Of a stretch of 43,034 bases of DNA, positions 4,002-5,834 are shown piece by piece. Position 1 is the stretch's first letter, and the number at the start of each line of letters is the position of its first letter. Position numbers and translations under genes: made by a program. Below the pieces are notes generated by a model that did not search any database, was not told the origin of the DNA, and was given only the letters and a program-made list of their open reading frames with translations. The stretch comes from an uncultured Pelagibacteraceae bacterium (GTDB taxonomy: Bacteria; Pseudomonadota; Alphaproteobacteria; Pelagibacterales; Pelagibacteraceae), in the NCBI GenBank assembly GCA_902536385.1, contig CACAWY010000008.1, positions 1-43,034 of the forward strand, given 5' to 3'.

Positions 4002-4030
4002 TTGACAAGTTTATGATGATCTAGTAAAAA
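4002..4030 (+). promoter_or_regulatory. Probable sigma70-type promoter of the metX transcript
   Basis: TTGACA, a perfect -35, lies at 4002-4007. After a 17-nt spacer comes TAAAAA at 4025-4030, a 4/6 match to the -10. The expected start of transcription falls at about 4035-4038, exactly at the 5' edge of the SAM-II aptamer, which is what a riboswitch-first leader needs. The assignment rests on motif matches only, and AT-rich DNA produces such matches by chance. Confidence 0.55.
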
Positions 4031-4034
4031 TACA

Positions 4035-4086
4035 TCGCGCTGATTTAACCATATTGCAAGCGCATAATAAATGTAGCTAAAAAGGG
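4035..4086 (+). promoter_or_regulatory. SAM-II riboswitch aptamer ahead of metX
   Basis: The sequence closely resembles the SAM-II class known upstream of metX in alphaproteobacteria and marine metagenomes. P1 is formed by GCGCT (4037-4041) and AGCGC (4059-4063). The pseudoknot stem P2a is TGCA (4055-4058) with TGTA (4072-4075). CC at 4049-4050 can pair with GG at 4084-4085 to close P2b. The conserved strings TGATTTAACC, TTGCAAGCGC and ATGTAGCTAAAAAGGG are present in order. It binds S-adenosylmethionine and should lower expression of the methionine genes downstream. The 3' strand also takes part in an alternative antiterminator hairpin (see the terminator entry). Confidence 0.93.
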
Positions 4087-4089
4087 GAT

Positions 4090-4115
4090 GCCCAGTTTAG
4101 CTGGGCTTTTTTTTT
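4090..4115 (+). terminator. Intrinsic terminator, the likely expression platform of the SAM-II riboswitch
   Basis: A 6-bp GC-rich stem GCCCAG (4090-4095) / CTGGGC (4101-4106) with a 5-nt loop is followed by nine T residues (4107-4115), only three bases after the aptamer and directly before the metX start. AGCTAAA (4075-4081), part of the aptamer's 3' strand, is perfectly complementary to TTTAGCT (4096-4102) in the terminator loop and 3' arm. GGG (4085-4087) can also pair with CCC (4091-4093). The antiterminator and the SAM-bound pseudoknot therefore exclude each other. The inference is that high SAM favours termination and low SAM allows read-through. Confidence 0.85.
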
Positions 4116-4117
4116 GG

Positions 4118-5257
4118 ATGAATGTAAAAATTGAAAATATAAAGAAATTAAATGTTATAAAATCACTTAAACTTGATTGTGGAAAAACTATAAGCAATTT
4201 TCCGCTAGCTTATGAAACTTACGGTACACTAAATCAAAACAAGGACAACGCTATTCTTGTTTTTCACGCACTTACAGGAGATCAATTTGTTACAGGAACT
4301 AATCCTATAACAAAAAAAGAAGGTTGGTGGATTACAGCTGTTGGTCCCGACAAAGCTATAGATACAAATAAATATTTTGTTATTTGTGCGAACGTTATAG
4401 GTGGTTGCATGGGTTCTCTAGGTCCAAAAAATATAAATCCAGAAACAAAAGTTCCTTATGGACTAGATTTCCCAGTTATTACTATTAAAGATATGATAAG
4501 AGCTCAAGAATCTTTGCTTGAGCATCTTGGTATAAAAAAACTTTTATGTGCAACTGGTGGATCAATGGGTGGAATGCAACTTTTACAATTTTGCACGACA
4601 TTTCCTGATAAAACTTTTTCGGCAGTTCCAATAGCTTGTAGTTCTAGTCATAGCGCTCAAAATATCGCTTTGAATGAATTAGCGCGACAAGCGATAATGG
4701 CTGATCCCGTTTGGGACAATGGTAAGTATGTTTTAAAAGATGCTCAGCCGAAAAATGGATTAGCTGTTGCAAGAATGGTCGGTCACATAAGTTATTTATC
4801 TGAAAAAGGTATGCAGGAAAAATTTGGCAGAAAGTTGCAAGAAAAAGCAGACTATGAATTTAGTTTTAATGCAGATTTTCAAGTAGAAAGTTATTTAAGA
4901 CATCAAGGTTATGCGTTTACAGAAAGATTTGATGCAAATTCTATACTATATATAACGAGAGCTATGGATTATTTTGATCTTTCAAAACAATTTAAGGGTG
5001 GTTTAATTGAAGCTTTTAAAAACCAAAAAACAAAATTTTTAATAATATCTTTTTCTTCAGATTGGCTTTATACAACAAAGGAGAATAAAGACATAGTTAT
5101 AGCATTGAATGCGTCAGGAGCAGATGTTTCATATTCAGAAATTATAACTGATAAAGGTCACGACTCTTTTTTACTCAATGAACCTGAATTTTTAAAAACC
5201 CTAAAAAGTTTTATAGACTCAATGTATGAGAAATTTAAAAATGAAAAAAGAATTTAA
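4118..5257 (+). CDS. metX: Homoserine O-acetyltransferase
   Basis: Alpha/beta-hydrolase-fold enzyme that activates homoserine by acylation (acetyl, or in some members succinyl) for methionine synthesis. In the 379-residue form, the nucleophile elbow GGSMGG puts Ser at 149. SSDWLY gives Asp315 and KGHDSF gives His348, completing the triad. HALTGD near residues 50-55 is the oxyanion-loop region. An in-frame ATG at 4088 would add ten residues translated through the riboswitch terminator hairpin. I reject it because it abuts GGGG with no spacer and adds an unfamily-like segment; residues from 4118 (MNVKIEN) look like a normal N-terminus. Expression is probably SAM-controlled. The gene overlaps metW. 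Confidence 0.93.
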   Translation: MNVKIENIKKLNVIKSLKLDCGKTISNFPLAYETYGTLNQNKDNAILVFHALTGDQFVTGTNPITKKEGWWITAVGPDKAIDTNKYFVICANVIGGCMGSLGPKNINPETKVPYGLDFPVITIKDMIRAQESLLEHLGIKKLLCATGGSMGGMQLLQFCTTFPDKTFSAVPIACSSSHSAQNIALNELARQAIMADPVWDNGKYVLKDAQPKNGLAVARMVGHISYLSEKGMQEKFGRKLQEKADYEFSFNADFQVESYLRHQGYAFTERFDANSILYITRAMDYFDLSKQFKGGLIEAFKNQKTKFLIISFSSDWLYTTKENKDIVIALNASGADVSYSEIITDKGHDSFLLNEPEFLKTLKSFIDSMYEKFKNEKRI

Positions 5258-5834
5258 AGTTATTGCAGATTTATTATCAAATAATACTAGAGTTCTTGAT
5301 GTAGGCTGTGGAGACGGTTCTTTAATGAGTCTTCTTAAAAAAGAAAAGAACATAGAAGTTCGTGGTTTGGAACTTAGCCAGGAAAATGTACAACAATGTA
5401 TTCACAAAGGTCTACCAGTAATTCAAGGAAATGCAGAAACAGAGTTACATCAATTTCCTGATCAATCTTTTGATTATGTTGTTCTTAGTCAAACACTGCA
5501 AGCTTTTTATGAACCTGAGAAAGTTTTAAAAGATTTATTAAGGATTGGAAAATCAGTTATAGTTTCAATACCAAATTTTGGTTATTGGAAAGTAAGAACA
5601 AAACTTTTATTTTTTGGTAAAATGCCGGTTACGAAAACACTTCCAAATACATGGTATAACACACCAAACTTACATATGTGTACAATTAAAGATTTATTTA
5701 ATTTTTGTGATGAAAAAAATATAAATATTAAAAAAGTTGTTGGAGTCAATGAAGATAAAACATCTTTAATCTATAAAAATAATTTAGAAATTAAAAATCT
5801 TTTTTCAAAACTAGGCATCTTTTTAATCGGATAA
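5226..5834 (+). CDS. metW: Methionine biosynthesis protein MetW, methyltransferase fold
   Basis: Small protein, paired with metX in alphaproteobacteria, that has a class I SAM-dependent methyltransferase fold; its role in methionine synthesis is generally assigned as a partner of MetX. The SAM motif VLDVGCGDGSL lies near residues 19-29 of the long form. It is followed by EVRGLELS (acidic residue after strand 2) and DYVVLSQTLQAF. SIPNFGYWKVR is typical of MetW. At 202 residues the length is normal. The start at 5226 overlaps the metX end by 32 nt; an alternative ATG at 5241 (MKKEFKV) overlaps by 17 nt and begins closer to the conserved domain, so either may be used. Confidence 0.9.
   Translation: MRNLKMKKEFKVIADLLSNNTRVLDVGCGDGSLMSLLKKEKNIEVRGLELSQENVQQCIHKGLPVIQGNAETELHQFPDQSFDYVVLSQTLQAFYEPEKVLKDLLRIGKSVIVSIPNFGYWKVRTKLLFFGKMPVTKTLPNTWYNTPNLHMCTIKDLFNFCDEKNINIKKVVGVNEDKTSLIYKNNLEIKNLFSKLGIFLIG

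Follow-up and report, generated by a model that had tools for sequence, protein, structure and literature searches.

A SAM-II riboswitch that probably attenuates metX transcription in SAR11 bacteria through a strand shared with a predicted antiterminator

SAR11 is one of the most abundant bacterial groups of the ocean. In a 43,034-nucleotide stretch of an uncultured Pelagibacteraceae genome (the whole stretch is called the window below) we find a SAM-II aptamer ahead of metX that is followed at once by an intrinsic terminator, and the inside of this terminator is complementary to the 3' strand of the aptamer pseudoknot. We conclude, with a probability of about 0.8, that metX (and metW) is governed by transcription attenuation at this riboswitch. 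The observations behind this conclusion are the sequence itself, its conservation in the SAR11 family and the predicted folding energies.

Architecture of the metX leader

The source assembly comprises 974 kb in 23 contigs, and contig 8 carries the metX leader. The leader lies between divergent genes and consists of a TTGACA, the SAM-II aptamer, the terminator hairpin, nine T and the start codon. P1 begins at 4037, 81 bases ahead of the metX start codon at 4118. The parts of the leader are:

4002..4031, plus strand: promoter-like site, TTGACA at 4002-4007 and a weak -10 element at 4026-4031 (scan); a transcription start near the first base of P1 would be predicted
4035..4086, plus strand: SAM-II aptamer, an H-type pseudoknot; P1 is formed by 4037-4041 with 4059-4063 (predicted fold)
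4074..4081, plus strand: UAGCUAAA, 3' strand of P2 and 5' strand of the antiterminator; its complement is 4096-4102 plus a U-G pair
4084..4086, plus strand: GGG, part of P2b and, in the antiterminator, partner of CCC 4091-4093 (minimum free energy (MFE) fold of transcripts ending at 4093-4114)
4088..4090, plus strand: in-frame AUG upstream of 4118; the longest ORF begins here, but it is probably not the start codon
4090..4106, plus strand: intrinsic terminator hairpin GCCCAG-UUUAG-CUGGGC (1 found against a mean of 0.1 in shuffles)
4091..4103, plus strand: 3' side of the antiterminator inside the terminator, CCC 4091-4093 and UUUAGCUG 4096-4103
4107..4115, plus strand: U tract of nine U (sequence)
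4118..5257, plus strand: metX, homoserine O-acetyltransferase (NF001209, 501.6 bits, above cut-off), starting two bases past the U tract
5226..5834, plus strand: metW, overlapping the end of metX (TIGR02081, 237.2 bits, above cut-off)

Two assignments follow the 2QWY numbering (position n being 4034+n): the 5' bases of P2 are presumably about 4049-4057, and U4078 would be the SAM-contacting U44. The initial annotation had described a GC stem within three bases of the aptamer and nine T behind it, and these coordinates are exact (gap 4087-4089, stem 4090-4106, T 4107-4115). Promoter-like sites number 5 in the region against 2.2 expected. Among relatives with the same kind of terminator (types A and B, see below), TTGAC(A/T) stands upstream of the P1 GCGC in 49 of 49 rows, at a distance of 35 bases in 42 and of 39 bases in seven.

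Placement of the metX start is backed by tblastn: of the 33 unique type A/B leaders, 32 align with the window protein from its residue 1 onwards and one from residue 15. Translation from AUG 4088 was considered and rejected: no ATG stands there in 22 of these 33 leaders, nor at the equivalent position in 45 of the 116 leaders among the terminator matches listed. The idea that the terminator belongs to an upstream gene was likewise dismissed; ORFs of at least 90 amino acids within 2 kb upstream lie on the minus strand, so that it serves no known upstream transcript. An Rfam search of the window region found no SAM-V before metX.

Identity of the aptamer

The assignment to SAM-II is firm as far as sequence can tell and rests on likeness to a laboratory RNA: the window aptamer agrees at 49 of 52 bases with SAM-II-WT as its sequence is printed in PMC8494917. 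The differences fall at positions 17, 30 and 32. These positions lie outside the SAM contacts of the crystal structure, and we take SAM-II-WT to be the RNA of the 2QWY crystal, the SAM-II of a Sargasso Sea metX. The core of the class is present, namely P1 with a GAUUU loop, UUGCA, the GCUAAA tail and the GG-CC pairing, and the core columns are invariant in 30 leaders. The placement before a methionine/SAM gene holds as well, with metX followed by metW. Judged by these features, the window aptamer would be expected to bind SAM.

The Rfam covariance model RF00521 (SAM_alpha) does match at the aptamer (4027-4101, E 5.8e-4 in 351 bases), but its 25.9 bits stay below the gathering score of 36, and the whole window contains no hit to any Rfam family at or above gathering score. 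Across the SAR11 family the model matches at E ≤0.05 in 149 of 197 genomes and at the gathering score in none; the threshold looks too strict for this family. At E ≤0.05 two of 14 control genomes also match, and the E-value alone is therefore no proof of SAM-II. With 0 of 197 genomes at the gathering score, SAM-II probably goes unnoticed when SAR11-family genomes are annotated automatically.

One strand for two predicted structures

The initial annotation had pointed out that AGCTAAA (4075-4081) is the exact complement of TTTAGCT (4096-4102), and we confirm this. It had further proposed an extension by GGG-CCC pairing; CCC 4091-4093 indeed pairs, but in the best ViennaRNA fold its partner is GGG 4084-4086 across a GAUG loop and not GGG 4085-4087 across an AUG loop. 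This best fold comprises 8+3 pairs, including the additional U4074-G4103, and the helix 4074-4103 is worth -13.0 kcal/mol compared to -9.4 kcal/mol for the AUG-loop register with its seven pairs (both ViennaRNA). The 5' bases 4076-4081 and 4084-4085 of this antiterminator are, again by 2QWY numbering, P2 bases of the SAM-bound pseudoknot, so that SAM binding and antitermination would be mutually exclusive.

When both folds are compared over 4073-4106, ViennaRNA assigns -13.8 kcal/mol to the antiterminator and -10.8 kcal/mol to the terminator. With P1 included, all transcripts with 3' ends at 4100-4114 have the antiterminator as their ligand-free MFE structure (as low as -21.5 kcal/mol). For the complete leader with its full U tract the MFE structure is the terminator fold (-22.2 kcal/mol) even without ligand, and ligand-free read-through would therefore have to be kinetic.

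To gauge chance, 4088-4106 was shuffled, which gave a 7-base complement to 4070-4087 in 85 of 20000 cases; with the stem kept as it is, two of the 1024 five-base loops give one. Only 10 other hairpins were available as controls in the fetched loci, which is too few, and 400 kb of the window's own genome were added. The resulting 443 kb, made up of the window and 20 other stretches, contain 31 hairpin-plus-T5 candidates, and only two of these include TTTAG(C/T); both stand behind the two best SAM-II matches of the genome.

Conservation of the predicted antiterminator in the SAR11 family

SAR11 loci were chosen by their aptamer and not by downstream sequence, taking 130 loci down the match list and leaving weaker matches out. 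A regular expression recovered 124 aptamers in the rows L001-L140, the window leader (L001) included and the other leader of its genome counted twice (L002, L009). Of these, 82 are followed by a hairpin and at least T6, and TTTAGC, TTTAGT or CTTAGC occurs inside the hairpin in 76 of the 82 (75 of 81 without the duplicate). TTTAGC accounts for 54 hairpins, TTTAGT for 15 and CTTAGC for seven, and in the six exceptions a partial complement remains, for example CTCTAGC or CGCTTT. The 82 rows divide into 48 of type A/B, 33 of type C and one other, taken as L121 (type A/B with a stem lacking the last C). Among the 42 aptamers to which our rule assigns no terminator are 30 unique type D leaders as well as leaders with weak hairpins.

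The two terminators are unrelated in sequence. Type A/B (48 rows and L121) reads GCCC(A/G)G(T/C)TTAGCTGGGC and always stands before metX. Type C (33 rows) reads CCACCGCTTTAGYCGGTGG and has metX within 900 bases in 0 of 33 cases; in those rows that were read further downstream a SAM-V-like element follows, recognized by eye and confirmed by Rfam in the window's own genome only. In type C a GCG follows GCUAAA and a CGC precedes UUUAGC, which lengthens the antiterminator to GCUAAAGCG/CGCUUUAGC.

Both antiterminators are kept in register. In an alignment of 30 type A/B leaders 92.4% of the antiterminator cells are paired, compared to 18-62% when one strand is slid; the corresponding values for 31 type C leaders are 97.5% and 23-53%, and there the linker between the strands varies while the loop does not. 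The type A/B alignment was drawn from the 33 unique leaders minus L029, L062, L082 and L130, which a key ignoring sequence past the hairpin left out, plus L121. In it the five pairs of GCUAA with UUAGC form in 30 of 30 leaders, as does G4085-C4092, with the flanking pairs present in 22 and 21 of 30; all cells of the terminator are paired. Predicted stability of the antiterminator equals or exceeds that of the terminator in 24 of these leaders (17 of 20 in type A, seven of 10 in type B) and falls below it in six, for example in L058 with -9.9 against -11.0 kcal/mol. In the unconstrained MFE fold, five or more of the six bases of GCUAAA are paired in 30 of 31 type C leaders and in 20 of 30 type A/B leaders, one of the latter (L023) being anchored at a wrong GCTAAA.

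The expectation that the complement would be retained in relatives is thus borne out for the genus, but the covariation that the initial annotation had thought of is absent: in the type A/B and type C alignments no pair has changed on both sides. The complement is kept without covarying because the aptamer strand is invariant.

Scans of genomes agree with the alignments. With three loop bases left open, the pattern matches in 108 of the 151 genomes of the genus and in 11 of the 12 that are at least 90% complete; the 43 genomes without it include many incomplete ones. The listed open-loop matches all read TTTAGC apart from three rows (G177, G114, G669). When the terminator alone was searched for in the genome collection, 116 of the 119 matches listed stood 5-16 bases behind a SAM-II core. 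These 116 represent 80 distinct leaders, and 115 of them have exactly nine T. The three other matches listed lie elsewhere, one in a Paraperlucidibaca MAG. In IMG/VR neither terminator pattern has an exact match that would indicate viral copies.

Other leader types in the SAR11 family

Further SAR11 leaders are built differently. The metX leaders of genus g4 (L091; alignment of 23 leaders) have no terminator hairpin by our rule. Behind GCUAAA they have 6-9 T in a row and the conserved motif CTC(A/T)CAATTC, which is nearly complementary to GAATTGCGAG of the aptamer; the latter is present in 30 of 30 unique leaders, themselves chosen by the downstream motif. The single fold examined shows an A-run/U-run pairing. 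These leaders would constitute a different, anti-aptamer platform, with the pseudoknot itself perhaps lying next to the U tract. A third platform is seen in L067, L074, L075, L104 and L139 (at least some of genus g5), whose weak A/T-rich hairpins lack TTTAGC and take forms such as CACTTYAAAGTG followed by T6 and CCTAAATTAGG followed by T7.

RF00521 also matches a different element in L073, L076, L078, L096, L100, L101 and L134 (and L041). It reads AGTCCTGATTTAG..AACTCTACTTGCTGGGACTTTAAAC..AACGCTAAAGGAGGCAAATG, stands before a short ORF and looks like a SAM-II/SAM-V-like pseudoknot with a clear SD; it is possibly a separate translational SAM switch. Several of the loci without the SAM-II core motif are of this kind.

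Proposed mechanism and alternative explanations

We infer termination, its dependence on SAM and the exchange of strands to work as follows. At low SAM, GGG 4084-4086 would pair with CCC 4091-4093 as RNA polymerase passes, and the helix would zip on by pairing UAGCUAAA 4074-4081 with UUUAGCUG 4096-4103. As this takes bases from both arms of the terminator, transcription would continue into metX. At high SAM the pseudoknot would be locked, holding in its P2 3' strand the bases (4076-4081, 4084-4085) that form the 5' strand of the antiterminator; GCCCAG/CUGGGC could then form before the nine U and stop transcription just ahead of the start codon.

An intrinsic terminator before the ORF is evident from sequence and conservation, and an exclusive antiterminator that shares the aptamer strand from the predicted fold and conservation. 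The competition for one strand that had been proposed from the window sequence is thereby supported, by the anatomy of the leader, by the near-balanced energies of both folds and by conservation, across the genus as well as in another terminator of unrelated type. A related observation comes from Gluconobacter, where the RNA-seq data described in PMC5756330 give a coverage of the SAM-II 5'UTR 20-fold above that of its ORF. Several results count against attenuation: the RF00521 score is below gathering, no pair has changed on both sides, six of 30 type A/B antiterminators are predicted to be weaker than the terminator, the unconstrained fold pairs GCUAAA in only 20 of these 30, the ligand-free MFE of the complete leader is the terminator fold, 43 of the 151 genomes of the genus are without the pattern, and in another genus, g4, most metX leaders lack a terminator hairpin.

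The hairpin could also mark a constitutive terminator or small RNA and always stop most transcripts regardless of SAM, with the complementarity a by-product. The ligand-free MFE of the complete leader, which is the terminator fold, agrees with this, as does the S. meliloti metA terminator, predicted to be unaffected by SAM in the metA passages of PMC9373788. However, a TTTAG loop has no role in a plain terminator and is nevertheless kept in two unrelated ones, and it is absent from all 44 hairpins outside the family, whose genomes look richer in G+C. We regard this explanation as very unlikely.

A purely translational switch, in which SAM hides the ribosome-binding site directly and the hairpin is incidental, would fit the 2024 review PMC10907184, whose discussion of direct occlusion uses the metX SAM-II RNA as its example. 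In the type A/B leaders, however, a hairpin and T9 follow directly after the aptamer and just before the start codon, and no AUG at SD distance is conserved. In the window GGGG ends at 4087, which is 30 bases from the start at 4118, and the adjacent AUG 4088 is not conserved. This explanation appears equally improbable.

More room is left for dual control, a possible though rather doubtful arrangement in which attenuation is combined with an SD-like AAAAAGGGG (4079-4087) that recruits ribosomes for AUG 4118 and is hidden by SAM. In it the folded hairpin would shorten the distance between SD and AUG 4118; an arrangement of this kind is reported for S. meliloti metA. The same order of parts is described in the metA passages of PMC9373788, and the window has AUG1 4088 and AUG2 4118 in frame with the terminator between them; one of the two GG positions does not vary across the 30 leaders. 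On the other side, P2b and antiterminator pairing already account for the GG, 22 of the 33 unique type A/B leaders have no AUG1, and SD use seems rare in this genome, an SD-like 4-mer preceding only 44 of 312 ORFs (first-ATG ORFs of at least 200 amino acids in 443 kb; 15 bases ending 4 before the start). Given the SD 30 bases away, the unconserved intermediate AUG and the rarity of SD-like 4-mers, we think that occlusion would be at most a second layer on top of attenuation, similar to S. meliloti metA.

The laboratory RNA in its native context

The laboratory SAM-II RNA itself occurs exactly in two genomes (L018 and L019, the same loci as L281 and L308). It ends at GGG, whereas both native genomes continue with GATGCCCAGTTTAGCTGGGC, T9 and GGATG. 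The textbook ribosome-masking RNA is thus natively followed by the terminator discussed here, which is apparently new; an earlier account might stand in Poiata 2009, Gilbert 2008 or Haller 2011. As PMC10907184 portrays it, the metX SAM-II RNA serves structural and single-molecule studies as the standard example of ribosome-site masking; the natural job of this model may have been misread. In the native context the decision probably falls during transcription, so that what should matter is how fast the RNA folds and not its binding at equilibrium.

The SAM-II/SAM-V tandem of Pelagibacter bhmT

The results on the full-length SAM-II/SAM-V RNA of P. ubique bhmT given in PMC11508383 (2024) are that its SAM-II hardly responds to SAM and that downstream sequence is responsible, a behaviour termed 'somewhat puzzling' there. 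In the genome taken to be that of HTCC1062, the leader at the bhmT coordinates of PMC2704228 fits the numbering of PMC11508383 at the positions named there (A20-U22, U46, A47, A49, U82-U90). In this numbering CUAAAGCG (45-52) is complementary to CGCUUUAG (66-73), and the free fold with this pairing reaches -15.5 kcal/mol compared to -7.2 kcal/mol for the hairpin when the aptamer strand is blocked. In this model P2 would be occupied at equilibrium, so that only nascent RNA could bind SAM. The same pairing may therefore explain the SAM-II silence in the tandem, and it makes the puzzle of PMC11508383 directly testable. A difficulty is that primer 3 of PMC11508383 restored SAM-II while covering U83-U90 and beyond and not 66-73, which simple pairing does not predict.

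A comparable arrangement is found on contig 4 of the window's own genome, where a SAM-II (93424-93499, minus strand) with a type C terminator is followed by a SAM-V (93322-93386, minus strand), as in Pelagibacter bhmT. With 74.3 bits this SAM-V is the only one above the cut-off in the genome. The gene behind the tandem is probably metY, judged by eye from L133 with its similar downstream sequence. L108 (g4) has a SAM-II before an ORF resembling BhmT (by eye), with neither a terminator nor an evident SAM-V, and might be an intermediate.

Taken together, we find it somewhat probable that the best-studied ribosome-masking RNA is a natural attenuator, that its SAM-contact strand serves SAR11 as antiterminator with two unrelated terminators, and that this accounts for the SAM-II silence in the tandem.

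Comparison with known SAM-II systems

Terminators behind SAM-II are not new in themselves. The initial annotation had mentioned earlier suggestions of them, and this is borne out by the relevant passages of Corbino 2005 (PMC1273637) and Barrick & Breaker 2007 (PMC2258182), where SAM-II often has terminators; with these systems the window shares the aptamer class, the methionine gene and the OFF logic. The alphaproteobacterial SAM-II RNAs with terminators presented there also share a promoter just before P1 and a terminator between P2 and the ORF. An effect of SAM-II on transcription is noted in PMC5069961, which places the element before P. ubique bhmT and metX, and the metX position is also given in Meyer 2009.

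Two further systems resemble the window leader. In S. meliloti metA, as laid out in PMC9373788, the SD lies inside the riboswitch with the start 74 nt downstream and a terminator separating AUG1 from AUG2. SAM-II is followed by a terminator in both metZ and metA of this species, and in metA the order is AUG1, terminator, in-frame AUG2; metA differs in that the authors state there that they were unable to predict a SAM-II-driven antiterminator. The bhmT tandem of 'Ca. Pelagibacter ubique' shares SAM-II, a terminator hairpin, nine U and the antiterminator logic as described in the tandem sections of PMC11508383 and PMC9481103, the latter adding that SAM-II always precedes a terminator stem in the tandem. 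It differs by another terminator sequence and by the SAM-V behind it, which the window metX lacks. The Sargasso Sea metX laboratory model described above is another close system.

Other alphaproteobacterial families present a contrast. There, matches in 183 of 385 genomes yielded 90 mostly high-scoring SAM-II loci, of which 44 have a terminator, 39 have none within 130 bases, six lack the anchor and one overlaps. In none of the 44 terminators does the hairpin contain TTTAG or CTTAGC; their G+C content appears to be higher, which alone would make TTTAG less likely. Of these terminators, 20 can form a helix of five or more Watson-Crick pairs with the aptamer tail, in each case chiefly through the strand behind GCUAAA (P2b, for example GGUCGGG), and 24 have no helix of this length. 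SAM-II attenuation itself is old and known, and the antiterminator made from the SAM-contact strand appears, as far as sampled, to be a SAR11 variant. Its use in SAR11 is apparently new, with an earlier account possible in Poiata 2009, Gilbert 2008 or Haller 2011. Where other families have a helix on the P2b side or none, in SAR11 the strand that contacts SAM would itself be the antiterminator.
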